Origin: an uncultured Croceitalea sp.
GTDB lineage: Bacteria > Bacteroidota > Bacteroidia > Flavobacteriales > Flavobacteriaceae
Direction of reading: 5' to 3'
DNA length: 64,000 bases
Assembly (NCBI GenBank): GCA_947495075.1
Contig: CANLXH010000001.1
Coordinates: 1,612,001-1,676,000 of the forward strand
Shown here: positions 1,078-14,485 of the stretch, one piece after another
How the letters are laid out: the number at the start of each line of letters is the position of its first letter
Numbering within the stretch: the first letter of the stretch is position 1
Position numbers and translations under genes: made by a program
The notes under the pieces: model-generated
What the model was told of the DNA's origin: nothing
Seen by the model: the letters and a program-made list of their open reading frames with translations, nothing else
Databases searched by the model: none

Positions 1078-1380
1078 TTAATCATCACTTTGCGTAAGCA
1101 AACATAAGCTGTCTTTATTAGCTTCCACAGAATGTACAACACCCACAGGAATTTCAAACTCATCATATTGATTAAGTACGGTATTCCCCTTCTCTTCTTG
1201 GTAGGTCACGGATCCTTCTAGTACAGTTAATTTAGATGGCCATTTTGCCGTATGTGATTTCATTACCATACCTTTTCTAAATCCGAGTACCAAGACACGA
1301 AATGTGGCATTATGGTGTAGGGATTTTGCAATTGGGTTTTTTGCTGATTTTAATTCTTCTTTTATCTGTTTTATAATCAT
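1078..1380 (-). CDS. Small cupin-domain protein
   Basis: This 100-residue protein has a single cupin barrel: a stretch like KSHTAKWPSKLTVLEGSVTY (about residues 41-60) followed by a GVVHSVEA segment near the C-terminus. Only part of the usual histidine set is present, so metal binding is uncertain. It is the last gene of the minus-strand run that starts with the Rrf2 gene at 6934 and lies 11 nt after the hemerythrin gene. A second, distantly similar cupin lies at 10364-10705 next to the other Rrf2 gene. A role as a sensor or small-molecule binding protein in the same stress response is inferred from position only. Confidence 0.75.
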   Translation of the reverse strand: MIIKQIKEELKSAKNPIAKSLHHNATFRVLVLGFRKGMVMKSHTAKWPSKLTVLEGSVTYQEEKGNTVLNQYDEFEIPVGVVHSVEANKDSLCLLTQSDD

Positions 1381-1391
1381 TGTGACTCTAT

Positions 1392-1853
1392 TTATAACCA
1401 GAACTCATCTGAGGTATTTTCTATAAATTCTTTTTCTTCATGTGATTTAAATAGCGATGCTAACTGCTCCGCTGTTGCAACCTTCTGAATCTCATTAAAC
1501 AAGAACCTCTCTTCAAACCGAATATGAAGGGAAAGTTCTTTCTCTATTGCCTTTAAAGACTCTTCCACATCTTCGCTGTCAGTAAATAGTTTTATCAGAC
1601 TTTTATGTTGGACAATTGCTTTTTTTACCAGCTCATCATGATTTCCTAAGATGGGAAAAATATGCTGTTCTTCTTTTTCAAAATGTGGTTCAATATGATT
1701 TTCATAAAACCAATCCACATATCTTTTTATACGGTTCAACTCATTTTTTTTTGAAAAACCCATTCTTATCTTCCAACACAAAAGAAGTCCATGATGATGG
1801 TCATGACTCAGCGGGACAAGTGCTTTATGTCTTTTTAAGGGTCGCTTGCTCAT
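1392..1853 (-). CDS. Hemerythrin HHE-domain protein
   Basis: This 153-residue protein has the four-helix hemerythrin pattern: SHDHHHG near residue 17, HFEKEEQHIFP near 57-67 (the H-x3-E motif), a QHK histidine in the third helix and HIRFEERFLF in the fourth. These supply the His and Glu ligands of a non-haem di-iron site. HHE proteins bind O2 or NO or take part in iron-sulfur repair after nitrosative damage (YtfE/RIC family); this one is shorter than YtfE and lacks its N-terminal ScdA domain. It lies 13 nt after the four-helix membrane protein gene and shares a run with a truncated haemoglobin and a CcoN-like oxidase, which supports an O2 or NO function. Confidence 0.88.
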   Translation of the reverse strand: MSKRPLKRHKALVPLSHDHHHGLLLCWKIRMGFSKKNELNRIKRYVDWFYENHIEPHFEKEEQHIFPILGNHDELVKKAIVQHKSLIKLFTDSEDVEESLKAIEKELSLHIRFEERFLFNEIQKVATAEQLASLFKSHEEKEFIENTSDEFWL

Positions 1854-1866
1854 AGATGCGGCTTTT

Positions 1867-2319
1867 TCAAAAAATACTTTTTTTACTATTTACTAAATTA
1901 AAATTCGTTGCTACAATAGTAATTAGTAGAATAACTTTGATAGCCTCCATACCAACGTAATAAAAATGCATATACGAAGGTTCAGGCTGTATTCTAGCTA
2001 TAATTGTCTCGGCTCTCAAATCCAAAACTGGCAGAAGGTAAAGGGTCTGGATTACCAAAATAATAATAGGTAGCAAACACTGAATCATAGGTTTGGCACT
2101 TTTCTTTAGGTAATAAATAGCATGAATCAGAAGGATGGTTCCAAACAATAATTCCACTTTGTTTAGCGCATTAAATACCAACCTACCAATGCTTAGACCT
2201 ATTTCTAAAGTAACCCCGGGAGCTCTGAATTTAAGCCATGCTTCCATAAAACTAATTGCCGCAACAAACCCTATCCATAAGAGGGAGGTTATAATTGGAA
2301 TGGCAATTCTTCTTTTCAT
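1867..2319 (-). CDS. Four-helix integral membrane protein of unknown function
   Basis: This 150-residue protein has four hydrophobic stretches at about residues 7-25, 45-70, 78-97 and 120-142, with a short basic C-terminus. I do not recognise a named family. No haem-binding histidine pair or catalytic motif stands out. Its ATG at 2319 follows the haemoglobin gene by 6 nt, so it is almost certainly co-transcribed with it. Its place between a haemoglobin and a hemerythrin suggests a membrane partner in O2 or NO handling, but that is inference. Confidence 0.7.
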   Translation of the reverse strand: MKRRIAIPIITSLLWIGFVAAISFMEAWLKFRAPGVTLEIGLSIGRLVFNALNKVELLFGTILLIHAIYYLKKSAKPMIQCLLPIIILVIQTLYLLPVLDLRAETIIARIQPEPSYMHFYYVGMEAIKVILLITIVATNFNLVNSKKSIF

Positions 2320-2325
2320 GGACGA

Positions 2326-2697
2326 TTACTCCTGATTATAGTGATGTATTCTTGCCTGGAAAATTTCCGCTATTCTAGCGGCTCGCATTTTTGCTTCTTC
2401 TGCCTTATCACCCATAAAATTTTCATTTAATGCTATATAAAAAAGTTCAAGCCAACGATTAAAATGTTCCTTTGAGATGGGAAGATTTATATGATGTGCT
2501 AGAGGGTTGCCTCTATAAGAAGATTCATGTAATAACACAGTTTGCCAAAAACGATACATTTTACCAAGATGTTCTGGCCAATTATCCTGTATCACGGTAT
2601 TGAAGATGTCTCCTAAAAGGGAATCTTCCCTAACCTTTGCGTAGAAAGTATCCACCATGAGTTCTATATCTTCCTTTGTCTCAATTTCTTTCAACAT
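2326..2697 (-). CDS. Group III truncated haemoglobin
   Basis: This 123-residue protein has the short 2-on-2 globin layout of group III: an N-terminal DTFYAKVREDSLLGDIF segment with a B-helix Tyr (about residue 19), then FWQTVLL, then SKEHFNRWLELF, whose His (about residue 78) is the proximal haem ligand. Group III globins bind O2 or NO tightly and are often linked to NO stress. Its start codon overlaps the stop of the 140-residue gene upstream (ATGA at 2695-2699), a sign of translational coupling. It fits the haem and di-iron theme of this run. Confidence 0.9.
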   Translation of the reverse strand: MLKEIETKEDIELMVDTFYAKVREDSLLGDIFNTVIQDNWPEHLGKMYRFWQTVLLHESSYRGNPLAHHINLPISKEHFNRWLELFYIALNENFMGDKAEEAKMRAARIAEIFQARIHHYNQE

Positions 2698-3119
2698 CAG
2701 ACAAATGATTTATATAGTTGTGGACCCCAATACATAATTAGATAGAAAAGACCAAAAGCAGCGAACATTATTAAAAGAGCCCAAACCCAGGCAGGGATTG
2801 CCTTTGGCGTCTCAGAACCTGTTATCACAAATTCATCTTTAGTCTCGCTACCGTAAGCATTAATGGTAATTGGAATCTGGTCATCAATAACCTCATTTTC
2901 CTCGAGGCCAACAACTGCGATTGCAGGGCCATTTCGTACTTCAAAAGGAATATTTTTAATTCCTTCAACACCATTTGAAGACTTTGCTATGATTTTTAAA
3001 TTGTGTTTACCATCAGGGATTTTTGTGGTATCCAAAACGAACTTAACTGGAGGAGAAAACTCAGCAAAAGGAATGTCTTCATCATCCAAAAAAACTTTTA
3101 TGACTCTCTTATCTTCCAT
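2697..3119 (-). CDS. C-terminally anchored Ig-like membrane protein in oxidase run
   Basis: This 140-residue protein has no signal peptide. It begins with an Ig-like beta region of about 100 residues (VFLDDEDIPFAEFSPPVKF, then DGKHNLKIIAKSSNGVEG) and ends in one transmembrane helix (about residues 110-133, AWVWALLIMFAAFGLFYLIM) with a short tail. The sequence alone does not fix its topology. It has no haem motif. I do not know a named family, but its position five genes after the Rrf2 gene, beside the oxidase subunits, suggests a structural or assembly subunit. Confidence 0.72.
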   Translation of the reverse strand: MEDKRVIKVFLDDEDIPFAEFSPPVKFVLDTTKIPDGKHNLKIIAKSSNGVEGIKNIPFEVRNGPAIAVVGLEENEVIDDQIPITINAYGSETKDEFVITGSETPKAIPAWVWALLIMFAAFGLFYLIMYWGPQLYKSFV

Positions 3120-3124
3120 AGCTT

Positions 3125-3394
3125 TTAAAAATCTCTTTTTAGAATACTGTTCTTAATATGATTTGGATTGTCTTCCTTAGGGTTAACTAAGTACTTAACG
3201 CTATAAAAAAGTGTGAACCCCACTATAATAATTGCAGACCACGTAATGATGTAATCAATTGTTCCTGTAGGTCCTGTACCATGGGTTATATTTTCCAAAA
3301 CCTTTGGTTGGTTCTTTTTACACAAGTCGCAAGCATAGCCCATAGTTAGACCTAGGGTTAGAAATAAAATTAGAGAATAGATGATTTTTTTCAT
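3125..3394 (-). CDS. Small CxxC membrane protein in oxidase run
   Basis: This 89-residue protein has a signal peptide (MKKIIYSLILFLTLGLTMGYA), then CDLCKK, a CxxC pair that would sit outside the cytoplasm, and one transmembrane helix at about residues 49-68, followed by a charged cytoplasmic tail. Its ATG overlaps the previous stop by 4 nt (3391-3394), so it is translationally coupled to the 78-residue gene. The size and topology resemble small cbb3 accessory subunits such as CcoQ or CcoH, but I see no clear sequence match. The CxxC could bind metal, for example for CuB delivery, or act as a thiol pair; this is inference. Confidence 0.7.
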   Translation of the reverse strand: MKKIIYSLILFLTLGLTMGYACDLCKKNQPKVLENITHGTGPTGTIDYIITWSAIIIVGFTLFYSVKYLVNPKEDNPNHIKNSILKRDF

Positions 3395-3627
3395 TTTTTC
3401 CAGTAATTATTTGCCGCAGCAATAGTTTGAAATTCTGTTGCAATAACTTGTGCGGATGCTATAAGAGAAATAGGGTCTTCTGCATAAATAGGACGTAATT
3501 TCTTTTTGATTTCCGCATCTGGCTGTATGGCTCCGACAGATTTCCGTGCTAAAGTAATTGCCAACTGTCTACCTTCAAAAGGAGTATTAGTGATTAGGCT
3601 CGGTAAATAATCTTCTTTAGTTTCCAT
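3391..3627 (-). CDS. 78-residue protein of unknown function in oxidase run
   Basis: This small soluble protein has no signal peptide, membrane segment or cysteine. It is predicted to be mainly helical and ends in NNYWKK. I do not recognise it. It lies 5 nt after the CcoO-like gene and overlaps the next gene by 4 nt, so it is firmly inside the run, and that tight spacing is the main evidence that it is a real gene. A role as a small cytoplasmic partner of the oxidase is only a guess. Confidence 0.65.
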   Translation of the reverse strand: METKEDYLPSLITNTPFEGRQLAITLARKSVGAIQPDAEIKKKLRPIYAEDPISLIASAQVIATEFQTIAAANNYWKK

Positions 3628-3632
3628 ATGTT

Positions 3633-4640
3633 CTATTGGTTTAATTGCATCACAAAATCTCTTATCCGTTTTACGTCAGCTTCAGTAATGACTTCTCCTT
3701 CATTACCCCAACTTGTGCGCTCATGATTTACAATGGCTGCAATTTCAGCATCATCAAGTTGTTCTGCAAAGCCTGGCATCTGTCCATATTCACTCCTCGC
3801 ATCATAGCCTTGTAAAATTATCTTTACCATTAAATCATAATCAGGATCATTAACCACATCACTACCCGCTAAAGGAGGAAAAGCTCCTTTTAGTCCTTGA
3901 CCGTTCTGTTGATGACATGCTGCGCAAACCTGCATATAAAGGTTTTCCCCATTAACGGTTCCTTTCCCACCTGTTTCGTTTTCGTCATTTTCATTTATTT
4001 TACTCGATGGTATAAAGCCTACGGTCGAGGCATCTGGCATTGGGGTTTGTTTCAATGCTTGGAGGTAAGATACCAATTGAATGGCCTCTTGGGAGGCAAT
4101 AACTTTATTTCCCTTTTTGGATAAATACTTTTCCGGAACTGGAACAAGTACATCATTTTCACGAACCGATGTCGAATCCAATTCTTCAAAAAGCCAAGGG
4201 TACGATGGCATGATGGATTCTTTCACCACGATTCTTGGGTTGTATAGATGCAACAAATGCCATTCCTTGCCTGGTTGGCGTTTTCCAATGCTGGTTAAGT
4301 CTGGACCAGTTCTTTCACTTCCCAAAAGTGAGGGGGATTGGCGTAAAAAGCCCAATCTTTTCTTACTATAATAATAGTCTGATGGAATAGAAGGCCGCTC
4401 TCCCCAGACATTGTCCATTTCAATATTTCGGACTTGCTGTGTATGACATGCGGCACAATTTTCGGTCACATAAATATTTAAACCAGCGGATTCATTTGGG
4501 GTCATACCCGGTTGATTTGGTAATGGCTCGTAATCCTGCATTTGAAAAGCGGGTAGAACGGCAATGATAATACTTAGGCCTGCGAATACAGTAAGGGCAG
4601 TAACAACTAAGTTCTTATGATTTTTATGAAAGTCTAACAT
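3633..4640 (-). CDS. CcoO-like cytochrome c subunit with fused second cytochrome c domain
   Basis: An N-terminal transmembrane helix (about residues 10-32) leads into a CcoO-type domain with haem motif CAACH at 62-66, the family signature GSERTGPDL near 107-115, HLYNPR near 131-136 and an axial-Met region IMPSYPWLFE. After a polar linker (about 212-230) comes a class I cytochrome c domain with a second CAACH at 239-243 and the axial-Met segment GQMPGF. Normal CcoO is about 200 residues with one haem; this 335-residue form seems to merge CcoO with a CcoP-like domain, and no separate ccoP is nearby. A longer frame begins at TTG 4676, but ATG 4640 comes 7 nt after the ccoN-like stop and directly after AAGGAG, so I prefer it. 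Confidence 0.88.
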   Translation of the reverse strand: MLDFHKNHKNLVVTALTVFAGLSIIIAVLPAFQMQDYEPLPNQPGMTPNESAGLNIYVTENCAACHTQQVRNIEMDNVWGERPSIPSDYYYSKKRLGFLRQSPSLLGSERTGPDLTSIGKRQPGKEWHLLHLYNPRIVVKESIMPSYPWLFEELDSTSVRENDVLVPVPEKYLSKKGNKVIASQEAIQLVSYLQALKQTPMPDASTVGFIPSSKINENDENETGGKGTVNGENLYMQVCAACHQQNGQGLKGAFPPLAGSDVVNDPDYDLMVKIILQGYDARSEYGQMPGFAEQLDDAEIAAIVNHERTSWGNEGEVITEADVKRIRDFVMQLNQ

Positions 4641-4647
4641 CTCCTTA

Positions 4648-6456
4648 CTAATTTTGTGTTTTAAGTTTTTCTTCAACTAGAATATCCGTAGCACCGATAA
4701 CTTTACGTTTTTTTACCATATAATAGAAGTTATAAGCGAATATCAAATGAGAGAGAAACATAAAGGACCCTCCCACGGCGCGCCATAACCAATATGGTTT
4801 CATTAGTATCACAGATTCTATAAATGCATTTCCTTCAATCCAACTCAACCCTCTCAAAGTTCCTCCTGCCATTAATGACATCATATAAGCGAATAGGCCT
4901 ATAAACGCCATCCAGAAATGAGCTCCTACAAATGCCTGAGGCGGTTCTTTTCCGGTAAGCTTTGGAATAAGGGAATAAATACACGCCCATAATAAAAAAG
5001 TGATAATACCATACATGGTCATATGAGAATGGGCCACATTAAAGTCTGTAAAGTGCCATACGTAATTGGTAAACCGAAATGCTTGAAAGCTACCTTGAGT
5101 AGAACCTACAAAGTAGAATACAACTCCCACTAAAAAGAAGGGTAACACATAACTTTTAGAAATATTATTCCATGTACCCTTCATAGTCATAAAAAAGTTG
5201 GTAGTACCAGCAACTACTGGAATAAACATACCTGCGCTAAACACAATAGCGACAGTCTGAAGCCACCACGGGAGCGGACTAAAAACAAAATGGTGTGTTC
5301 CTATTAGGGTATAAAATAACATTTGTGTCCAGAAAGCCAATACTCCCAATGAATAAGAGTATATGGGCTTGTTCAATGCGGATGGTAAGAAATAATACAC
5401 TAGACCTAGGGTAAAAGTCATAAACCACATACCAACTCCCATGTGCATATAATAGCCCTGTATGATAGTTTCTCCTAAACCATCTTGATAAAAAGGCAAG
5501 TAAGCAATTGTAGACAATATTATAGTCCAACCTAAAGCAGCCAGTAGAAACCAATTGGAGATGTAGATTTCGGAAATTTTTCGATTAGCGACTGTCTTAT
5601 AAAAATTATGAAAGGTCATAATGAGACCGATTGCAAAAAGTAACATAATGGGCCACACATACTCTCTATATTCACCCCCACCGTTATTAACACCTGCCAT
5701 TAGCGAAAGGTTACCAATAACCAACGACGCATTGATAAGTACCCAAGCAATACGAGCATTTTTATAACTAAAGATTTTTGTATTTGATGTTCTAGCAATA
5801 ACAAAGTATCCGAGCCCTATCATTGCTAGAGAAGCCCAACCCCAAAAAACGGTATTGGTATGCACTGGTCTTAGCCTTCCAAAAGATAACCAAGATTGAC
5901 TATCCATTTCTGGCCAAACAAATTTCATTCCTAAATATTGCCCCACTAATGTTCCAAACACTAACCAGATTACAGCAGCACTTAAATAGTAAATGATAAT
6001 CTTTTTTAATTCTTCTGGAGTTTCGAGACCTAAAAGCGATTTCTTCTTTTCGTCAAACAATGGATTGTCTGGCTCATTTGTAACTTTGGAAATCAGTCCT
6101 TTTTTATCAAACACTTCTTTATCGCTCCCAAGCTCAGAGCCCTCTAAAGTATATTTTAGTGCTTTTTTTCGTTTCTCTAGAATAACATCTATTTCATCGT
6201 CATTCAAATTCAATATCTCTTCAGAAAATGCAAGTTCATTCTTTTTAAGTTGTTTCCATTTGTATTTATCAATGAAAGAGTTAAACCTGTAAAGCAGTAT
6301 AATTACCGCTAAAAAGAATACAATCAATAATAAAATAATGGTTCCTATGATTCCAGGGTTTTGAAGCCAATTCTCCGTGGATATAGGTTCGCTTTGGGCT
6401 GTGGTGATAATTGGAAATAATGCTGTAATGGTTAATAATTGCAATCGTTTTTTCAT
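4648..6456 (-). CDS. CcoN-like haem-copper oxidase subunit I, active-site Glu replaced by Gln
   Basis: This is a 602-residue protein with about twelve core membrane helices. It keeps all C-family ligands: haem b His199 (RPVHTN) and His478, haem b3 His476 (AHSH), CuB ligands His338, His388 and His389, and Tyr382, which matches the cross-linked Tyr. Spacing from His338 to His476 matches Pseudomonas stutzeri CcoN (207 to 345) without a gap, and residue 454, the Glu323 position, is Gln (GSTQG). Compared with the usual length of about 475, there is an N-terminal extension of roughly 150 residues with a signal-like segment, one helix (36-57) and a charged linker. It is probably a variant oxidase or an NO reductase. 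It lies 43 nt after the Rrf2 gene. Confidence 0.88.
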   Translation of the reverse strand: MKKRLQLLTITALFPIITTAQSEPISTENWLQNPGIIGTIILLLIVFFLAVIILLYRFNSFIDKYKWKQLKKNELAFSEEILNLNDDEIDVILEKRKKALKYTLEGSELGSDKEVFDKKGLISKVTNEPDNPLFDEKKKSLLGLETPEELKKIIIYYLSAAVIWLVFGTLVGQYLGMKFVWPEMDSQSWLSFGRLRPVHTNTVFWGWASLAMIGLGYFVIARTSNTKIFSYKNARIAWVLINASLVIGNLSLMAGVNNGGGEYREYVWPIMLLFAIGLIMTFHNFYKTVANRKISEIYISNWFLLAALGWTIILSTIAYLPFYQDGLGETIIQGYYMHMGVGMWFMTFTLGLVYYFLPSALNKPIYSYSLGVLAFWTQMLFYTLIGTHHFVFSPLPWWLQTVAIVFSAGMFIPVVAGTTNFFMTMKGTWNNISKSYVLPFFLVGVVFYFVGSTQGSFQAFRFTNYVWHFTDFNVAHSHMTMYGIITFLLWACIYSLIPKLTGKEPPQAFVGAHFWMAFIGLFAYMMSLMAGGTLRGLSWIEGNAFIESVILMKPYWLWRAVGGSFMFLSHLIFAYNFYYMVKKRKVIGATDILVEEKLKTQN

Positions 6457-6499
6457 TAGTTGGAGTGTTAGACTTTTTTATCTTATATAAATATATTTT

Positions 6500-6934
6500 T
6501 TATCTTTTTATGTGCGTTAGTCCTACATATAAGCCACTCGCAAGTTCGAACAAGCTGATATTTCCTACTACTTCTCTCAATTCATCACGTATAACAGAAA
6601 ACTTATCATGTACTGGACATGGCTTTTTTGCATTACACTTTTTTAATCCTAAGCCACAGCGTGTAAAAATCCCATCTCCATCTATAGTATGGACAATCTC
6701 TGCCAGTTGTATTGTATCTATCAAGCTCTTTTCAATTTGGAACCCGCCAGTAGGACCCATAGTTGACTGCATAATATCATTTCTTACCAGCTGCTGTAAA
6801 ATCTTAGCAGTAAATGCAACGGGGGAATCTATTTCGGCAGCTATATCTTTTAATGTCACCCGCTTATCCTCAAGAGATTGGGCAGCAACGTAAATTGAAG
6901 CTTTTATGGCATATTCACATGCTTTTGAAAACAT
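6500..6934 (-). CDS. Rrf2-family iron-sulfur transcription regulator (first copy)
   Basis: This 144-residue protein has an N-terminal winged helix (MFSKACEYAIKA, then PVAFTAKILQQLVR as recognition helix and GPTGGF as wing) and three cysteines, C93, C100 and C106 (C-x6-C-x5-C, ending CPVHDKF). That spacing is like the [4Fe-4S] or [2Fe-2S] site of NsrR and related members that sense NO or redox state. It heads the minus-strand oxidase run. A near-copy with the same cysteine positions lies at 9056. Its own promoter carries a palindrome shared with the second copy, which suggests autoregulation and cross-regulation. Confidence 0.92.
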   Translation of the reverse strand: MFSKACEYAIKASIYVAAQSLEDKRVTLKDIAAEIDSPVAFTAKILQQLVRNDIMQSTMGPTGGFQIEKSLIDTIQLAEIVHTIDGDGIFTRCGLGLKKCNAKKPCPVHDKFSVIRDELREVVGNISLFELASGLYVGLTHIKR

Positions 6935-6955: not shown

Positions 6956-6994
6956 CAAAAATAAGACTATGTTTTAAATAGGACAAATTTATCC
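6956..6994 (-). promoter_or_regulatory. Rrf2 promoter with operator over -33 box
   Basis: On the minus strand the near-palindrome GGATAAATTTGTCC (plus strand 6981-6994, GGACAAATTTATCC) contains TTTG. Twenty nt after its TTG lies TATTTTTG (6956-6963), a perfect match to the Bacteroidota -7 box TAnnTTTG. The operator begins 46 nt before the start codon. The second Rrf2 gene has the same layout, differing in one core base, so this is very likely the regulator's own site. Confidence 0.75.
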
Positions 6995-7240
6995 GATAAT
7001 AAGCTTGTAAGAAATAAATATTTAAGTTTTAATAAACTTGACGACAATATAAAGAAAATGGAGCTAGTCATTAAAAACAGTAATACATTTTTGAATATCA
7101 GTGAATCTGTTCTGAATATTATTGATACTCATTTATACTAATTTGGATGCTATGTTTCCATATCTATTTCTATATTCTGGACTCATCCACTTTTCGCAAG
7201 TCCTTCATCAAATTAACTCAAAGTGTCTAATCTCTTATTT

Positions 7241-7314: not shown

Positions 7315-7839
7315 ATGAAACCACGTAGTAGAATTCTAAAAACTGCTTCCCATTTATTTCATATCCAGGGATATAATTCAACTGGTATAAACCAGATAAT
7401 TGAGGAGGCTAGTGTAGCTAAAGGAAGCTTTTATTACAATTTTAAATCGAAAGAAGAAGTGTGCATTGCATTTTTAAACGCAAGACATGCGTATTGGTTT
7501 GAATCACTTAAAAACTACATTGAGCTAAAAAAGAATGAGGAACAACCTATACTTCTAGCCTTTGATTTTTTAATTGAGATGAACGTAAAAGAAAATTTTA
7601 GAGGGTGTAGTTTTCTAAATATTCTCTCAGAAATTCCAAGTGATAATTCAAAAATCTTAAAGGTAATACAGAATCATAAGAAAGATTTGCGACAATACAT
7701 TGCATCGTTGGTAAACAACAATAAGGTATCAGATCATATTTATCTTTTATTTGAGAGTTCTATAATCGAAAGCCAACTATATAGAGGCCAATGGCCTATA
7801 AAGAAATCAAAAAAGATTGTTAAACATTTAATTCAATAA
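7315..7839 (+). CDS. TetR/AcrR-family repressor
   Basis: The 174-residue protein has a typical TetR N-terminus: [20 protein letters not shown], then the helix-turn-helix [20 protein letters not shown] at about residues 26-45. The variable C-terminal domain would bind a ligand; a GCSF motif near residue 97 resembles TetR_C members of the YcdC/AefR kind. The ATG at 7315 sits 23 nt after a good -7 box. It is followed after 4 nt by the DUF1348 gene and then by a GlcG/HbpS-type gene, which are its likely targets. The operator palindrome upstream argues for autorepression. Confidence 0.92.
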
Positions 7840-7843
7840 AATT

Positions 7844-8254
7844 ATGGAACAAAAACATCCGCTCCCCCCTTTTAATGAGGAAACCGCATTGCAAAAAGTA
7901 CAAATGGCAGAAGATGCTTGGAATTCTAAAAATCCCGTTACTGTATCTAAAGCCTATTCAATAGATACAGAATGGCGAAATAGAATTGACTTTATTAACG
8001 GTCGAGAAGAAGTACAAAGTTTCTTGACTAGCAAATGGGAAAAGGAACTCAACTATAAACTTAAGAAAGAACTATGGGGTTTTAGAGGTAATCGAATAGC
8101 CGTAAGATTTGAGTATGAATACCATACAGCAGATGGTCAATGGTATAGAGCTTATGGCAATGAAAATTGGGAGTTTGATGATGACGGTTATATGAAGAAA
8201 AGATATGCTAGTATTAACGACCTTCCAATTACTGAAGAAGAAAGAAGGTTGTAG
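7844..8254 (+). CDS. DUF1348 family NTF2-like protein
   Basis: The 136-residue protein matches the DUF1348 pattern throughout: EDAWNSKNP at the N-terminus, DTEWRNR near residue 41, KELWGF and [10 protein letters not shown] in the middle, [12 protein letters not shown] near 105 and ASIND at the C-terminus. The fold is a small alpha-plus-beta cone of the nuclear transport factor 2 type. The biochemical role of this family is not established. It lies 4 nt after the TetR gene and is probably repressed by it. The first two codons after ATG (GAA CAA) follow a clean start with no alternative upstream. Confidence 0.88.
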
Positions 8255-8313
8255 GCTACACAATTAAGTATTTATTGTCAAAGAAATAAAAATTAAAATT
8301 TAGAACAGAAAAA

Positions 8314-8712
8314 ATGAATATTACTTTATCACATGCAGAAAAGATTATAGCAAATGCTCAGGCAAAATCAAAAGAAATAAATACAAAAATGAATATCGCC
8401 GTTGTGGATTCTGGGGCAAATTTAGTAGCTTTTGCCCGTATGGACGGTGCCTGGCTTGGGTCCTTAGACATATCTATAAAAAAAGCAAAAACAGCTCGAT
8501 TTTTTGATATGGACTCAGGAGCGATAGGAAATTTATCACAACCTGGCGGAGCACTATTTAATATTGAACACTCGAATAATGGGTTGATTACATTCCCAGG
8601 TGGTATTCCTATTAAGAATGATAACAATGAGGTCATCGGTGCTATCGGTGTTAGTGGGAGTACTGTTGAAAATGATCACATTGTCGCCGAAGCTGGAATA
8701 AAGATTTCCTAA
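8314..8712 (+). CDS. GlcG/HbpS-family protein
   Basis: This 132-residue protein has the family landmarks: [20 protein letters not shown] near residues 27-46, then [10 protein letters not shown], a glycine-rich GGIPI and a terminal GAIGVSGS near 107-114. The HbpS member binds haem and iron in Streptomyces; GlcG members occur with glycolate and other operons. No signal peptide is present, so it is likely cytoplasmic. It is the third gene of the TetR run, 59 nt after DUF1348, and is followed by a strong hairpin. Haem or small-molecule binding is inferred from the family only. Confidence 0.88.
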
Positions 8713-8982: not shown

Positions 8983-9033
8983 AAAATCTATTACGGACAA
9001 ATTTGTCCGTAATAGATTTTATCATTACTTTTA
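8983..9033 (+). promoter_or_regulatory. 38-bp perfect palindrome and promoter of second Rrf2 gene
   Basis: Bases 8983-9020 form a perfect palindrome of 19 + 19 bp with its centre between 9001 and 9002. The core GGACAAATTTGTCC (8995-9008) matches the first Rrf2 operator at 13 of 14 bases. The TTTG inside it is followed, 20 nt after the TTG, by TACTTTTA (9026-9033), one base off the TAnnTTTG box. The core ends 47 nt before the start codon, against 46 nt in the other copy. Confidence 0.78.
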
Positions 9034-9055: not shown

Positions 9056-9490
9056 ATGTTTTCAAAGGCTTGTGAATATGGAATAAAGGCGGCTATTTTC
9101 ATAGCATCACAATCTTCGCTAAATAAACGTGCTAGTCTAAAAGAAGTTGCATCGGAAATTGATTCTCCGGAGGCATTTACAGCTAAAATTCTTCAACGAC
9201 TCGCTCGTAATGGAATTTTGGAGTCCAACATAGGTCCAACGGGTGGATACTCGATTGAAAAGAAAAGAATCAAAAAAATAATGCTCAATGAAATAGTGGA
9301 TGCAATAGATGGCAATTCAATTTATATCAGTTGTGGATTAGGATTAAACAAATGCAACGCAAAAATACCATGTCCAGTTCATGATAAATTTTCAGTTATT
9401 CGAGAAGAACTACGAAAAATGCTTATGACTACTGGTTTATTGGAGCTTTCCAACGAGTTGAAAATGCAGCATTCGGTATTAATGCGTTAA
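9056..9490 (+). CDS. Rrf2-family iron-sulfur transcription regulator (second copy)
   Basis: This 144-residue paralogue of the regulator at 6500-6934 has the same length, start (MFSKACEYGIKA), wing (GPTGGY) and cysteines C93, C100 and C106, with CPVHDKFSVIR conserved after them. It is therefore also expected to hold an iron-sulfur cluster. The recognition-helix segment EAFTAKILQRLARNG is nearly the same as in the first copy, so both may bind the same sites. It starts a plus-strand series that includes DUF488, CDGSH and cupin genes, though gaps of 80-150 nt leave operon membership open. Confidence 0.92.
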   Translation: MFSKACEYGIKAAIFIASQSSLNKRASLKEVASEIDSPEAFTAKILQRLARNGILESNIGPTGGYSIEKKRIKKIMLNEIVDAIDGNSIYISCGLGLNKCNAKIPCPVHDKFSVIREELRKMLMTTGLLELSNELKMQHSVLMR

Positions 9491-9597
9491 AAAAAATAAA
9501 TTAAATTCAGAGTAAAAGGTCTATAACTCTATAATAAAATGATATTAAGACAGCTTATCTAATAAACTAAATGCTTAATATATTAAAAGAAGCAATT

Positions 9598-9963
9598 ATG
9601 AGTACTTTTAAAACAAACATAAAACTAGTAAGGGCTTATGAGGTGAAGGAGCCTAAAATGTTTGTGAGAATCCTAGTTGATAGATTATGGCCACGAGGAC
9701 TATCAAAACAGAAACTGGAAATTGATTTTTGGGAAAAAGAATTAGCTCCTTCTGCAATGTTAAGAAAATGGTATCATGAAGATTTAAGCAGGTGGAATGA
9801 ATTTAAAGAAAGATACGAGTTAGAAATGGAGGTTAATAAAGTTTATCTAAGTCAATTTCTTATTAAAATGGCTAAAGAAGAAGAAATACACCTCATATAT
9901 GGTGCTAAAAACAAGGAAGAGAATCATGCAATTGTATTAAAAAAATTCTTGGATTCTTTGTGA
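9598..9963 (+). CDS. DUF488 family protein (YeaO-like)
   Basis: About 121 residues from the ATG at 9598. An in-frame ATG at 9571 would add nine residues, but family members begin close to the IKLVRAYEV segment, so I favour 9598. The family signature FVRILVDRLWPRGLSK is complete, followed by the FWEKELAPSAMLRKWYHE stretch and a C-terminal HLIYGAKNKEENHA motif. The family function is unknown; members are often linked to haem, iron or nitrosative stress genes, which fits this neighbourhood. The gap from the Rrf2 stop is 107 nt with no hairpin, so co-transcription is possible. Confidence 0.88.
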   Translation: MSTFKTNIKLVRAYEVKEPKMFVRILVDRLWPRGLSKQKLEIDFWEKELAPSAMLRKWYHEDLSRWNEFKERYELEMEVNKVYLSQFLIKMAKEEEIHLIYGAKNKEENHAIVLKKFLDSL

Positions 9964-10115
9964 TGTATCTTCTAAAAATAAAGAATCGTTCAACCTTATA
10001 AAATTTTAATGATAAGTATAAATAAAGTAATAAACTTAATGACATGAATTAGTTTTAAGAACCGCTTGAAAAGACATTTAAAATCGATTAATAACTAGCT
10101 TTAAACAAATACTAT

Positions 10116-10352
10116 ATGAAACCTAAAATTGCCCAAAAAGAACCCTACAAGGTGTATCTAGAAGAGAATAAAAAATATTTCTGGTGCTCCTGTGGAGAAA
10201 GTCAAAACCAACCCTATTGCGATGGTAAACATGTTGGAACCGAGTTTCTTCCTTTACAATACACACCTTCCAAATCAGGAGATTTTTATTTATGTGGCTG
10301 CAAAAGAACAAACACAGAGCCACTCTGCGACGGTACACATTCAAACTTATAA
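10116..10352 (+). CDS. Double CDGSH iron-sulfur protein
   Basis: This 78-residue protein contains two CDGSH-type motifs: CSCGESQNQPYCDGKH (about residues 28-43) and CGCKRTNTEPLCDGTH (about 60-75). Each gives the C-x-C-x8-C-D-G-x-H pattern whose three Cys and one His hold a [2Fe-2S] cluster, as in mitoNEET. There is no membrane segment, so this is a soluble bacterial form with two clusters. Such clusters are redox- and NO-labile, and a possible role is electron or cluster transfer. It is followed 11 nt later by a cupin gene. Confidence 0.93.
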   Translation: MKPKIAQKEPYKVYLEENKKYFWCSCGESQNQPYCDGKHVGTEFLPLQYTPSKSGDFYLCGCKRTNTEPLCDGTHSNL

Positions 10353-10363
10353 ATAATAAAATC

Positions 10364-10705
10364 GTGAAGACAGCATTTATATATAACAATTTAGAATATA
10401 AAGAAGATAAGCCAGCAGTAACAATATTACTTGAAACTTCTTTTACCAAAGAAATCCGGATAACACTAAAAAAGAATCAGATTATGAAGGAGCACCATGC
10501 CCCTTTTCCTATAGTAGTCCATATTATTGAGGGAAAAATTGATTTTGGTGTTGACAATAGAATCTTGAAATTAGAAAAAGGTGGATTAATAGCCTTAGAG
10601 AGTAGTGTCCCACATGATTTAAGAGCTGAAGAAGATAGTATTATTCGTTTAACATTAAACAAGGCGGATAAGGCCAGTAGGGTAGAAAAAGTTATTACTA
10701 AATAA
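10364..10705 (+). CDS. Cupin-domain protein with GTG start
   Basis: The frame is open from 10292, but that start lies inside the CDGSH gene. GTG at 10364, 11 nt after the CDGSH stop, gives a 113-residue protein that begins VKTAFIYNN, and I prefer it. The cupin core is KEHHAPFPIVVHIIEGKIDF, with two His, then GGLIALESSVPHDLRAEEDS holding the second-motif His. It looks like a metal- or ligand-binding single-domain cupin and is distantly like the cupin at 1078-1380. Pairing with the CDGSH gene is supported by the short gap. Confidence 0.82.
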   Translation: MKTAFIYNNLEYKEDKPAVTILLETSFTKEIRITLKKNQIMKEHHAPFPIVVHIIEGKIDFGVDNRILKLEKGGLIALESSVPHDLRAEEDSIIRLTLNKADKASRVEKVITK

Positions 10706-10787
10706 AATTCCCAATACAAGAATGAGCAATCTTAAGGGGTTAGTTCAAAAATAAGAAATCAACAATAAATCACTAAAAACAAGAATT

Positions 10788-11141
10788 ATGAGCACACAAG
10801 AAGTAGCGAACCGTTTGGTAGAATTATGTCGTAAGGGGCAAAATATGCAAGCTGTTCAAGAACTGTATGGTAAGAACATTGTTAGTAAAGAAATCTCTGG
10901 GTCACCTAATGAGCTTACGCATGGGTTTGATGCCGTTACTAAAAAGGTTGAGAATTTTCTAGCTAGCATTGAAGAATTCCATGGTGTTGAGGTTTCAGAC
11001 CCCAATGTTGCGGAAAATCATTTTAGTTGCGCGATGAAAATGGACTTGACTTTTAAAGAACAAGGACGTGTAACTATGAATGAAATTAATGTATACAAAG
11101 TAGAAGATGGTAAAATAGTTGAAGAACAATTTTTCTATTAA
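10788..11141 (+). CDS. SnoaL/NTF2-like protein (first of pair)
   Basis: This 117-residue protein has an NTF2-like fold: an N-terminal helix (ANRLVELCRKGQNMQAVQEL), ELYGKNIVSKE and a C-terminal strand EINVYKVEDGKIVEEQFFY. The last segment is typical of SnoaL-like small proteins. No conserved catalytic Asp/His pair is clear, so enzyme activity is uncertain. It is followed after 42 nt by another 117-residue member with the same ending, evidence of local duplication and divergence, and then by an AhpD-like gene. Confidence 0.82.
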   Translation: MSTQEVANRLVELCRKGQNMQAVQELYGKNIVSKEISGSPNELTHGFDAVTKKVENFLASIEEFHGVEVSDPNVAENHFSCAMKMDLTFKEQGRVTMNEINVYKVEDGKIVEEQFFY

Positions 11142-11183
11142 GTATCAGTAAAGTATAAACTAGCTAAGAATTAAAGAATAGTT

Positions 11184-11537
11184 ATGGAAACGATACAAAT
11201 GAAAATCAATGATTTAAATAATCTCGCTGCACAAGGTAAAGGTTTGGAAGCTTTTGATAAATATTATCACGATGATGTGATAATGCAAGAAAACGAAAAC
11301 ACACCAACTGTTGGTAAGGCTAATAATCTAAAACGAGAAAAAGCCTTCTTTAAGGAGTTTGAAGAATTTAATATGATTGGCCCTCTTAAAGTAGCTGTTG
11401 GAGAAAATGTTTCAATGGTAGAATGGCACTACAAATTTATTCATAAGAAGAATGGACCAGGAGAATGGACTCAAGTATCTGTGCAAGAATGGAAAGAAGG
11501 CAAAATAATAAAAGAGAAATTTTACTATAATTCATAA
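11184..11537 (+). CDS. SnoaL/NTF2-like protein (second of pair)
   Basis: This is another 117-residue NTF2-like protein: LNNLAAQGKGLEAFDKYYHD at the N-terminus, a central VSMVEWHYKFIHK strand and a C-terminal QEWKEGKIIKEKFYYNS. It has the same length and end layout as the gene just before it but low identity, so the pair is an old duplication. YYHDDVIMQEN is a typical SnoaL-like ligand-pocket segment. Its stop is only 4 nt from the AhpD-like start, so the two are co-transcribed. The substrate is unknown. Confidence 0.84.
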   Translation: METIQMKINDLNNLAAQGKGLEAFDKYYHDDVIMQENENTPTVGKANNLKREKAFFKEFEEFNMIGPLKVAVGENVSMVEWHYKFIHKKNGPGEWTQVSVQEWKEGKIIKEKFYYNS

Positions 11538-11541
11538 TTAT

Positions 11542-11886
11542 ATGAGTGAACATAATTTATACCCAGAGATAGATAAAGAACTTGCGACAGAAATGGCTTC
11601 TTTATCGAAAGGAAATATCGATGTTTGGAGAAGTTTCAGTAGAACAGTATTTAAAGCGGGAGAGCTTTCGGAAAAGACGAAACAGTTAATTGCCATTGCA
11701 GTTTCCCATGTTACGCAATGCCCTTATTGTATAAGATCTCATACGGCTCAAGCGTTAAAAAAAGGAGCTACAGGTGAAGAAATAATGGAAGCCATTTGGG
11801 TCGCTGCTGAAATGAAAGCTGGGGCGGCATACGCTCACTCTGCTCTTGCTGTAGACGAAATACAAAAACAACAAAAGGCACAATAG
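11542..11886 (+). CDS. AhpD-like carboxymuconolactone decarboxylase family protein
   Basis: This 114-residue all-helical protein has the AhpD/CMD core: LIAIAVSHVTQCPYCIRSHT, with the redox pair C-x2-C and the following His (CPYCIRSH), then a KKGATGEEIMEAIWVAAEM helix. The CxxC and His are the residues needed for peroxidase or disulfide-reductase activity in AhpD, so a thiol-based antioxidant role is likely. It is the last of three closely spaced genes. A 170-nt gap follows, holding a weak bulged inverted repeat near 11963-11985. Confidence 0.9.
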   Translation: MSEHNLYPEIDKELATEMASLSKGNIDVWRSFSRTVFKAGELSEKTKQLIAIAVSHVTQCPYCIRSHTAQALKKGATGEEIMEAIWVAAEMKAGAAYAHSALAVDEIQKQQKAQ

Positions 11887-12056
11887 CTATTTGTCACAGA
11901 GGCAATCTAGGCAAAACTACGATTGCGCAGATAGTGGTTAAATATATAACGCTCTATTTTAAGACAATCCTGTGATAAGGTTGTCGGTAAGCCTATCTCA
12001 AATAGTATCTAAATAAGAAAAAGGAAAGAAATTGTGAAATTTTAATAATTTAAAAA

Positions 12057-12347
12057 ATGGAATTAATTGACAAACTGGTAGAATTCTTCAAAGCTCCGAA
12101 AGAAGAAACAAAAGATATTGCTCCAGAAGGTATTTGTGCTCTTTGCTGGGGTCACTACGCTTATGACAAAAAGATTAGAACGGTTTTAAAAGATAAACAG
12201 ATTGATGTAAACAACCATCGTGATAGTTATATGAAAGTAAAAAAGTTTCTAGTAGAACATGTTGATGGCCCTAAGCTCAAAAAAGGGCTTATTGAATGCT
12301 GCGGTAAGTGCGATGATTCTGAAAAGAACATACATAAAAATAATTAG
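12057..12347 (+). CDS. Small cysteine-rich protein of unknown function
   Basis: This 96-residue soluble protein has a CALCWGHY motif near residue 27 and an ECCGKCDD motif near residue 82, giving five cysteines in two clusters that could bind a metal or an iron-sulfur cluster. The middle is charged and helical. I do not recognise a named family. It lies 15 nt before the SDR gene and after the AhpD-like gene. Given the redox setting, a metal or thiol role is plausible but unproven. Confidence 0.72.
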   Translation: MELIDKLVEFFKAPKEETKDIAPEGICALCWGHYAYDKKIRTVLKDKQIDVNNHRDSYMKVKKFLVEHVDGPKLKKGLIECCGKCDDSEKNIHKNN

Positions 12348-12362
12348 TAGTAAGGCTATTAA

Positions 12363-13064
12363 ATGGATATAAAATCAAAAAATGTAGTTGTATCTGGTGC
12401 TAGTTCTGGTCTAGGTAGTGCGATATCTTCCGCTTTAGTAGAACATGGAGCTATTGTTTACGGACTCGCTAGGAATTTGGAGAAATTAAATGTGCTAAAA
12501 AATGTACTTGGAGGCAAGTTTATTCCTATGCAATTAGATATTTCAGCTCAGGAAGATGTTAATACTTGGTTACAGAACACATTTTCTCATAATCAATTAC
12601 CAAGTATTTTGATAAATAATGCAGGGGTTGGGGGCTTTGGAAAAATAGACGAGTTACCAACAGAACAATGGCACAAGATGATGCAGGTTAATCTAAATGG
12701 AATGTATTATCTAACCTCTGGCATAGTTCCTCTTATGAAGCAAAACAAGCAAAGTAGTCATATCATTAATATTGGTTCCATTTTAGGTACAGTTGGGCGT
12801 GAGGAAGGAACTGCCTATTGTACCAGCAAATTTGGTGTGCAGGGTTTTAGCGAAGCTTTATTTAAAGAGTTAAGATATGATGGAATAAAAGTAACCTGTA
12901 TTAATCCTGGATCTATTGCCACGGATTTTTTTAAGGATAATGGCGTTGTTGCCAATGATAAAATGCTCCAAACAAGCGATATCGCAAATACCTTGATTCA
13001 TATCCTAAACACACCAGACAACATGCTTATAGATACTGTTACGATACGCCCGTTAATTCCTTGA
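12363..13064 (+). CDS. Short-chain dehydrogenase/reductase
   Basis: This 233-residue classical SDR has the NAD(P)-binding GASSGLG near residue 12, NNAG in the fourth strand, and the catalytic Ser (NIGSILG) with Tyr and Lys (YCTSK, the YxxxK motif). The C-terminal CINPGSIATDFF segment is the usual PG motif. An Arg (ARN) after the second strand points weakly to NADP(H). The substrate cannot be read from sequence. It follows the cysteine-rich gene by 15 nt and ends the series that began at 10788; a 369-nt gap follows. Confidence 0.92.
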   Translation: MDIKSKNVVVSGASSGLGSAISSALVEHGAIVYGLARNLEKLNVLKNVLGGKFIPMQLDISAQEDVNTWLQNTFSHNQLPSILINNAGVGGFGKIDELPTEQWHKMMQVNLNGMYYLTSGIVPLMKQNKQSSHIINIGSILGTVGREEGTAYCTSKFGVQGFSEALFKELRYDGIKVTCINPGSIATDFFKDNGVVANDKMLQTSDIANTLIHILNTPDNMLIDTVTIRPLIP

Positions 13065-13433: not shown

Positions 13434-13835
13434 ATGAAAAGGACATTTTTAGTTATATCGATTATCGTACTCTTTTTTAGTTTCTCGGCAAGTAATGCTC
13501 AAGATGGCCCATGGGTAGCTCCTGATAGTGCCAAAGAAATAAAGAACAAAGTCTCAGAAAATAAAAGGGCGGCTTCTGCAAAAAAGGGCGCTAAGGTTTT
13601 CACTGCACGTTGTGTGTTCTGCCATGGAAAGGAAGCAAAGGGTGATGGACCTGCTGGTGCACGATTAGTTCCAAAGCCGGCCAATTTAACATCGAGTCGT
13701 GTTCAAGATCAGGCAGATGGTGAAATCTTTTGGAAAATAACAAATGGCAGAGGTCCCATGCCAAAATGGGAAGCTATCCTCTCGGAAGAAGAACGTTGGA
13801 ATCTAGTAAATTTTATTAATACTCTTGGAGAATAG
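13434..13835 (+). CDS. Periplasmic class I cytochrome c
   Basis: This 133-residue protein has a signal peptide cleaved near SNAQ (residues 1-23), haem motif CVFCH at 60-64, the GDGPAGARLVPKPANLT segment typical of small electron-carrier cytochromes, and a likely axial Met at about 109 (GRGPMPKW). The C-terminal helix EEERWNLVNFINTL is normal. It could shuttle electrons in the periplasm, for example to the haem-copper oxidase or from the P460-like protein encoded next (80 nt later). Pairing with the latter is inferred from position. Confidence 0.92.
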   Translation: MKRTFLVISIIVLFFSFSASNAQDGPWVAPDSAKEIKNKVSENKRAASAKKGAKVFTARCVFCHGKEAKGDGPAGARLVPKPANLTSSRVQDQADGEIFWKITNGRGPMPKWEAILSEEERWNLVNFINTLGE

Positions 13836-13915
13836 TACAGCATCTTATATAAATATGTTTTAGTACGCTATTTGTATAAGAATTAAATAATCTTAAATCT
13901 AAAAAAACGTAGAAA

Positions 13916-14485
13916 ATGAGAAAAGAAATTTTAATATCTCTTTTAGTGATAGCAGGTATATTTACCTTGAGTTTTAATAGAGTTGCCAATATTGAAAGTG
14001 AATATCAGGTTATTCCCATTGAAGATAAGGTAGCATCTACTTTATCAGATTTAGCTTTGGATTATAAAAGCTGGTATAAGATAACAGAGGGAAATCCAAA
14101 TACAGGAGATCCTACAGGCTTTTTAGGTGGAAGGCATAAAGGTATAGAAGCCTACCGGGATGTTTACATCAATAAAATTGGCGAAGAAATAAACAAAGGT
14201 ACCGCACCTTACAAATACCCAGCGGGGACAATGATTGTGAAAGAGGAATTTAAAAATAAAGCAGCATGGGAGGCAGGTAAAAATCCAAGTATAAAGCTAA
14301 TGGTAAAGTTAGAAGCAGGGGAATCACCGGAAACAGGCGATTGGGGATATGCCAGTAAACTTAATGTAGACAAAATTGCTACTGGGAAATCCGGTAAAGC
14401 AAAATTTTGTTCTGGTTGCCACGTATTTGTAGCTGCAGAAGGAGACTATGTTTTCATGAATAGTGATTTTCTAAAAACTGAATAA
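13916..14485 (+). CDS. Cytochrome P460-like c-type haem protein
   Basis: This 189-residue protein has an N-terminal signal or anchor (about 1-23), a SWYKI segment, then YPAGTMIVKEEF near 101-112 and a single haem motif CSGCH at 165-169 close to the C-terminus. This order, beta-rich domain first and haem motif last, is that of the cytochrome P460/c'-beta family. P460 enzymes oxidise hydroxylamine and NO in ammonia oxidisers through a Lys-haem cross-link; c'-beta members bind NO. Lys109 of the VKEEF segment is one candidate, but sequence alone cannot prove a cross-link. Placed after a cytochrome c, it supports an NO or nitrogen-oxide theme. Confidence 0.75.
   Translation: MRKEILISLLVIAGIFTLSFNRVANIESEYQVIPIEDKVASTLSDLALDYKSWYKITEGNPNTGDPTGFLGGRHKGIEAYRDVYINKIGEEINKGTAPYKYPAGTMIVKEEFKNKAAWEAGKNPSIKLMVKLEAGESPETGDWGYASKLNVDKIATGKSGKAKFCSGCHVFVAAEGDYVFMNSDFLKTE

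Follow-up and report, generated by a model that had tools for sequence, protein, structure and literature searches.

A variant cbb3-like haem-copper reductase in an Rrf2-led operon of Bacteroidota, with a possible role under nitric oxide

The cbb3 oxidases (CcoNOQP, C family) and the nitric oxide (NO) reductases (NORs) cNOR and qNOR (NorBC, NorZ), eNOR, sNOR and gNOR belong to one haem-copper superfamily. The diagnostic-site table excerpted from one study lists Y for O2 reductases and E, E, N, Q, D and N for cNOR, qNOR, sNOR, eNOR, gNOR and CuANOR, respectively (PMC8756737). In passages of a review and of a further survey, the canonical cbb3 oxidase of P. stutzeri is described as able to reduce NO (PMC8780969), and norB is reported to be missing in a third of the Bacteroidetes carrying nirK and nosZ, a finding attributed to Flavobacteriales (PMC4250227). 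Here we analyse a 64,000-nucleotide stretch from an uncultured Croceitalea sp. (contig CANLXH010000001.1, positions 1,612,001 to 1,676,000; hereafter the window), in which ten open reading frames (ORFs) run head to tail (minus strand, positions 6934 to 1078) and join an Rrf2-family regulator to a CcoN-like and a CcoO-like subunit and a set of smaller proteins (Table 1). We tentatively favour, with a probability of about 0.45, the reading that this operon encodes an NO-responsive cbb3-like terminal reductase which works under NO and reduces O2 and probably also NO, and the behaviour of the P. stutzeri enzyme is counted in its favour. No description of the operon or of its CcoN clade was found in the literature searched, which covered titles, beginnings of abstracts and passages, with most subscription papers and all preprints outside it.

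The ten ORFs lie where the original prediction had placed them, with gaps of 5-43 nt, of which the widest (43 nt) separates rrf2 from ccoN, and with two overlaps, one of 4 nt between the genes for a hexameric tyrosine-coordinated haem protein (HTHP) and an 89-amino-acid (aa) protein and one of 1 nt between the genes for a 140-aa protein and a globin. For ccoO, homologues favour the ATG at 4640, 7 nt past ccoN, over the listed TTG (4676), which would overlap ccoN.

The CcoN-like protein scores 248 bits against NCBIfam ccoN (TIGR00780), below the cut-off of 583.15, compared with 672 for this genome's canonical copy. A tree built on 59 rows unites the variants in a single clade (support 100/100) that joins the CcoN rows (98/99) and stands clear of cNOR, of qNOR and of a third, NorBC-like group, with the reservations that the branching order of the CcoN groups has weak support (87/35), that the bootstrap had not settled and that one row (cNOR_L129), dropped afterwards, is a wrong ORF. 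The variant haem-copper oxidase of the original prediction belongs to the cbb3 family as a clade of its own. Relatives were collected by scanning genome contigs, which gave 347 places encoding a CcoN-like protein; all figures for 79 or 80 loci below refer to the best 80 of these 347, of which 79 hold an ORF-anchored ccoN (L112 being without an ORF anchor) and some are cut by contig ends. Aligned to the CcoN pattern, 79/79 variants keep the six histidine ligands of the haems and CuB and the cross-link Tyr, and this pattern, together with the grouping with CcoN and not NorB, places the protein among the C-family haem-copper reductases in the broad sense. This Tyr stands six residues ahead of the CuB His pair, and two glutamates of the calcium-site kind are likewise present in all 79.

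Four positions of the window's protein, 371, 374, 378 and 454, carry G, A, Q and Q in 79/79 variants and S, H, L and E in 14/14 canonical CcoN sequences (usable CcoN sequences came from 14 of the 27 canonical-cbb3 loci). They correspond approximately to S240, H243, L247 and E323 in P. stutzeri numbering, near the K-type proton path, and Q378 would lie four residues ahead of the cross-link Tyr on the same helix face. In total, 76 positions within residues 150-585 are fixed differences between the variant (at least 97.5% of 80 sequences) and canonical CcoN (14/14), and 13 of these fall in residues 327-346, around the CuB histidine 338. Similar K-path-like changes, G for H and Q for E, are found in plasmid-borne CcoN variants of Paraburkholderia fungorum (L124) and Sinorhizobium meliloti (L125), which differ in sharing only ~31-32% identity and in having no NO gene annotated in their 17.5-kb stretches; the neighbours are LysR, P-type ATPase and molybdopterin-oxidoreductase genes in the former and hemA and P-type ATPase genes in the latter. 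On a plasmid of Methylophaga thalassica (L126), another ccoN stands beside genes for a sulfite reductase, a DsrE-family protein and a nitronate monooxygenase, with no ccoO annotated in the 13.6-kb stretch.

The altered K-path-like positions would suit a true NO reductase that arose within the cbb3 family, which would draw on cytochrome c for the electrons to turn 2 NO into N2O and would fill the NOR gap in NirK-positive Bacteroidota without cNOR or qNOR. None of the 79 variants has E, N, Q or D in place of the diagnostic Tyr, as the tabulated NORs do, and the Glu at the cNOR position (HLWVEG type) is not present in the variant in our sequence comparison; both points speak against such an enzyme, which we consider rather unlikely. 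By the published Tyr criterion, as excerpted (PMC8756737), the variant classifies as an O2 reductase, since the Tyr is kept in 79/79. With the NORs it shares the superfamily, a higher frequency alongside NirK and a probable NO context. It also differs from cNOR and qNOR in its separate place in the tree, from which eNOR, sNOR and gNOR were absent.

The CcoO-like subunit combines a FixO/CcoO-like mono-haem part with an added C-terminal cytochrome c domain and reaches 92.4 bits against NCBIfam ccoO (TIGR00781; cut-off 200.65). As in cbb3 operons, the order is N, O and two small transmembrane (TM) proteins. Unlike in cbb3 oxidases, subunit I belongs to a separate clade, has an N-terminal extension of ~150 aa and shows the S/H/L/E to G/A/Q/Q exchange, a second cytochrome c is fused to CcoO, a haem-carrying CcoP is missing from the operon, the operon is led by rrf2 and the maturation genes lie outside it. 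The 89-aa protein occupies the slot of the CcoQ-like gene of canonical operons and the 140-aa protein that of ccoP, and the labels Q* and P* used here denote position only. In the 140-aa family a GSE-x-P motif and a W are invariant, CxxCH is absent from the window's protein, and matches to FixP_N are weak (31/58 members at E <= 1, best 0.0033), as are those to P5-ATPase (best 0.0023) and Big_7 (best 0.00074). These two proteins remain without a clear family, as the original prediction had described all three small proteins; the third, of 78 aa, is an HTHP (PF11534, 118.3 bits, cut-off 25, E 1.9e-34; PDB 2oyy, E 3e-20). A passage on the HTHP of Silicibacter pomeroyi reports peroxidatic activity (PMC4813847). 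The predicted truncated haemoglobin is confirmed and can be refined to group III (PDB 2ig3, E 3.7e-19). In Campylobacter, NO induces the group III globin Ctb, and O2 can be bound by both the globin and the hemerythrin families. The four-helix membrane protein (TM4) fits no family in Pfam or NCBIfam, and Foldseek gave no match for it at E <= 0.001.

A search for the gene order in other genomes, as had been suggested with the original prediction, found it recurring in Bacteroidota, the phylum named in the record titles of all 80 loci, so an order confined to this genome is not what is observed. Among same-strand neighbours at the 79 anchored loci, in clusters each named from one scanned member, ccoO is present at 79, the 140-aa gene at 67, the 89-aa gene at 63, rrf2 at 62, the globin gene at 48, a 242-aa protein at 41, hemerythrin at 33, TM4 at 28, HTHP at 27, the cupin cluster at 26, a 2Fe-2S protein at 16 and a tryptophan dioxygenase-like protein at 12. 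The 242-aa neighbour is Ric/ScdA-like, consisting of ScdA_N and hemerythrin domains in the one cluster member scanned; Ric/ScdA proteins are a repair family for nitrosative damage. The series rrf2-N-O-HTHP-Q*-P*-globin-TM4 is unbroken in several loci (L037, L040, L065, L072, L075, L085 and L092), and the terminal cupin is the least constant part, with a window-like cupin in 19/80. The variant was found at >60% identity in 3 of 59 relatives of the window's own genome, and the variant CcoO at >300 bits in 16/346 Bacteroidia, own genome counted (next match 77.5 bits); the distribution of the operon is therefore patchy yet widespread. Ten loci (L075:17522-18745 and relatives) also carry, near the operon, a 407-aa multi-TM protein with a HAHSHFAFAGW-type motif and no Pfam family, and a protein behind the qNOR gene of another locus (L141) resembles it by eye.

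The regulator is a member of the Rrf2 superfamily (PF02082, 82.6 bits, cut-off 30; TIGR00738, 78.9 bits, cut-off 73.3). Its description as being of the NsrR kind is not supported: the NsrR model (NF008240, cut-off 182 bits) gave 21 bits for this protein and 27.1 bits for a second Rrf2 copy in the window, and the NCBIfam and PDB scores lie nearer to IscR/SUF regulators. Like NsrR and IscR, it has three clustered cysteines and a predicted palindromic operator ahead of its own gene; unlike them, it spaces the cysteines CX6CX5C, the spacings being CX4CX5C-like in NsrR and CX5CX5C in IscR. The palindrome TCGGA-N8-TCCGA is common to the upstream regions of the operon, mostly 53-65 nt ahead of the rrf2 start, with sites of <=1 mismatch in 21/80 regions (0.2 in shuffles) and of <=2 mismatches in 38 (3.6 in shuffles). 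Downstream of the operator TTG, at 18-22 nt, TAnnTTTG follows at 30/39 sites (shuffle expectation 0.25; the window's second rrf2 added), and the nine sites without an exact match include the operator of the second rrf2. This arrangement matches the -33/-7 promoter type of Bacteroidota, and the operator overlaps the promoter. With <=3 mismatches allowed, the own genome has six operator sites, compared with three for a reversed control, and the two best lie ahead of the window's two rrf2 genes.

Behind the second rrf2 lies a gene set whose cupin, AhpD-like, SDR, 96-aa CxCWG and DUF488-like kinds also occur in the surroundings of the ccoN operon in other genomes, so that the window is likely to contain a regulon made up of two operons. 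The regulator nearest to IscR, HTHP genes at 27/79 loci and CDGSH, 2Fe-2S, OsmC-like and AhpD-like neighbours (the last two named by eye) would fit a module against iron-sulfur (Fe-S) and peroxide stress, with Rrf2 as the sensor of cluster loss, HTHP and the cupins clearing peroxide and the oxidase drawing down cellular O2. The association with NirK and the qNOR-like neighbours in 5/80 loci, presented below, argue against this explanation, which we regard as very unlikely.

NirK (TIGR02376) scores above the cut-off in 31/48 named carriers of the operon, which were drawn from 50/80 loci with isolates first (L058 and L101 left out), are clustered by genus and seemingly overlap with the family sample by at least three genomes (same coordinates). 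Within the family, NirK is present in 6/9 carriers and 39/210 non-carriers (p 0.003; 5/8, p 0.009 without the own genome), and within the class, where a threshold of E <= 1e-60 counts 32 genomes as NirK-positive (G124 among them, just below the curated cut-off), in 5/16 carriers and 27/330 non-carriers (p 0.01; 4/15, p 0.04 without the own genome). The own genome is included among the 9, the 16 and, below, the 36 carriers, and the comparisons ignore phylogeny beyond the family contrast. A qNOR-like gene lies within 5 kb upstream in 5/80 loci (one of them incomplete, at the end of a contig), and the 10-kb flanks of the 80 loci contain NirK in 2 and NosZ in 4. The link to NO that had been predicted from the mix of genes is upheld by the Ric/ScdA-like genes at 41/79 loci, by the enrichment of NirK and by these qNOR-like neighbours; the accompanying preference for NO reduction over ordinary respiration is no more than possible, given the Tyr in 79/79.

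A profile built from two NorB sequences served to look for NORs in 80 genomes, 11 NirK-negative class carriers being left out; the NORs were typed by score and frame length, and for seven proteins of the third type and two qNOR the sequence itself was inspected. The 36 NirK-positive carriers comprise 3 with cNOR, 10 with qNOR only, 2 with the third type and 21 with none; the 27 NirK-positive non-carriers 12, 4, 6 and 5, respectively; and the 17 NirK-negative carriers 3 with qNOR and 14 with none. NosZ is present in 30/36, 18/27 and 15/17 of these groups. NirK-positive carriers therefore more often have no NOR of any counted type (21/36 vs 5/27, Fisher p 0.002; p 0.004 without the own genome), and so do those among the genomes with both NirK and NosZ (19/30 vs 2/18, p 0.0007; p 0.0007 also without the own genome). 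The own genome has both NirK and NosZ, and its only match to the NorB profile is the variant itself (E 4e-4). These figures, with the published norB-less third of nirK+nosZ Bacteroidetes (PMC4250227, passage), support the NO reductase alternative. Much of the complementarity leans on the third type, which is perhaps no NOR: without it, the numbers lacking cNOR and qNOR are 23/36 vs 11/27 (p 0.08) and, with NirK and NosZ, 21/30 vs 8/18 (p 0.13), and these weaker values may be the fairer ones because two ligand histidines are missing from the third type. Further points against this alternative are that NirK-negative carriers are NOR-less equally often (14/17), that a qNOR-like gene stands upstream of the operon in 5/80 loci and that the groups compared differ in taxonomy. 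More specifically, the clade could be a further independent NO reductase line that reads as an oxidase because it kept the oxidase Tyr, supplying the step from NO to N2O to NirK+NosZ Bacteroidota without norB as a self-contained module switched by NO through the Rrf2 operator; this we consider unlikely.

The third NorBC-like pair, found in other Bacteroidota genomes (L143, L144, L145, L146, L147, L148 and L149), consists of a COX1-family protein of 438-464 aa and a cytochrome c of 139-144 aa, adjoining in five of the seven loci. In 7/7, another residue stands in place of the CuB/FeB His of helix VI (HLWVEG in cNOR), and the H-x-H pair has Met as its second member.

It is also conceivable, if distinctly unlikely in our view, that the operon encodes a second cbb3-type oxidase of the ordinary high-affinity sort, suited to micro-oxic life, which the NO-linked genes accompany since habitats that produce NO are poor in O2 too. 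Its active-site residues are those of an O2 reductase, its globin and hemerythrin may simply bind O2, and many carriers have no NirK. An ordinary oxidase is harder to reconcile with scores far under both NCBIfam cut-offs (248 of 583 bits for ccoN, 92 of 200.65 for ccoO), the 76 fixed differences from canonical CcoN, the conserved predicted operator of an Rrf2-led operon, the Ric/ScdA-like gene at 41/79 loci and the enrichment of NirK within the family. The own genome has a canonical cbb3 locus at C1:1736000-1752000 (L035) with a fused ccoNO (1354 bits, cut-off 1080), ccoG, FixH/ccoH, a heavy-metal P-type ATPase (CcoI-like by position) and a ccoP of 112 bits, under its cut-off of 180, whose FixP_N domain is above its own; NosZ lies ~12 kb from this ccoNO. 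The cbb3 genes noted as absent are thus missing from the operon as far as ccoP, ccoG and ccoI are concerned, all three being present here; ccoS was not looked for. The PF00115 proteins of the genome are the canonical cbb3, the variant and a 619-aa frame that is presumably aa3.

In our favoured reading, that of a reductase working under NO, the Rrf2 protein would bind an Fe-S cluster and repress its own operon until NO, or Fe-S damage, hits the cluster and releases the protein from the DNA. Electrons from the cytochrome c pool would enter the enzyme through the CcoO-cytochrome c fusion, and O2 would be reduced at a site tuned to function while NO blocks the canonical oxidases, the enzyme probably also turning NO into N2O. 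Alongside, the globin, hemerythrin, Ric/ScdA and HTHP proteins may scavenge NO, O2 or peroxide or repair Fe-S clusters, and maturation could be provided by the canonical cco locus outside the operon. NO as the signal, tolerance of NO and the substrate of the enzyme are what we infer here, whereas the operon, the clade, the operator site and the association with NirK are results; several observations weigh against the favoured reading. Tolerance is read from gene context, HTHP and the peroxide-type neighbours equally fit a role in oxidative stress, and hhalign matched the TM helix of the 140-aa protein better to CcoQ than to CcoP. The regulator is nearer to IscR/SUF than to NsrR, with NO as its signal deduced from the neighbours only. 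Four further operator sites of the own genome have 3 mismatches, three of them inside or at the end of genes; the fourth (L138), between two divergent small ORFs, may be an operator. NirK is missing from 3/9 family, 11/16 class and 17/48 named carriers, and NosZ is not enriched within the family (5/9 carriers vs 103/210, p 0.75). Whether as a hidden NO reductase or as an oxidase working under NO, the operon is a concrete candidate for the handling of self-made NO in norB-less cells, and under either reading gene surveys that count it simply as a cbb3 oxidase could give a wrong picture of N2O sources and of respiration at low oxygen in Bacteroidota.

Table 1 Features of the operon and of the second rrf2 gene set, in window positions
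Feature	Position	Strand	Remark
Predicted Rrf2 operator TCGGATAAATTTGTCCTA	6979..6996	-	1 mismatch vs palindromic consensus TCGGA-N8-TCCGA
Operator TTG	6984-6986	-	-33-like element of the Bacteroidota-type promoter
TAnnTTTG (-7-like) element	6956..6963	-	20 nt downstream of operator TTG
Rrf2-family regulator	6500..6934	-	Cysteines 93/100/106, CX6CX5C; nearest PDB relative IscR
Variant CcoN-like haem-copper reductase subunit I, 602 aa	4648..6456	-	N-terminal extension ~150 aa
CcoO-like subunit with fused C-terminal cytochrome c domain	3633..4640	-	Two CxxCH
HTHP, 78 aa	3391..3627	-	PF11534
89-aa single-TM protein (Q*)	3125..3394	-	AC-x2-C behind signal-like segment
140-aa protein (P*)	2697..3119	-	Beta-rich N-terminal part, one C-terminal TM helix
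Group III truncated haemoglobin	2326..2697	-	PDB match
Four-helix membrane protein (TM4)	1867..2319	-	No family or Foldseek match
Hemerythrin-domain protein	1392..1853	-	Pfam/NCBIfam scan
Cupin-like protein	1078..1380	-	Under Pfam cut-off
Second predicted operator ACGGACAAATTTGTCCGT	8993..9010	+	Perfect palindrome; 2 mismatches vs consensus; 63 nt ahead of second rrf2
Second Rrf2 regulator	9056..9490	+	CX6CX5C spacing as in the first
Gene set behind second rrf2	9571..13064	+	Several kinds also near the ccoN operon in other genomes
DUF488-like	within 9571..13064	+	Similarity to cluster, no family call
CDGSH protein	10116	+	Behind second rrf2
Cupin	10292	+	Behind second rrf2
Two SnoaL-like proteins	within 9571..13064	+	Behind second rrf2
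AhpD-like	11542	+	Named by eye
96-aa CxLCWG protein	12057	+	Behind second rrf2
SDR	12363	+	Named by eye

Past the second rrf2 set, at window positions 13434-14485, a gene for a small cytochrome c is followed by a cytochrome P460 gene (PF16694, E 8.4e-14); no relatives of either protein were found in the 80 loci at E <= 1e-15. The region between the two rrf2 genes (7315-8712) encodes a TetR regulator, a DUF1348 protein and an HbpS-like protein of the haem-degrading family.

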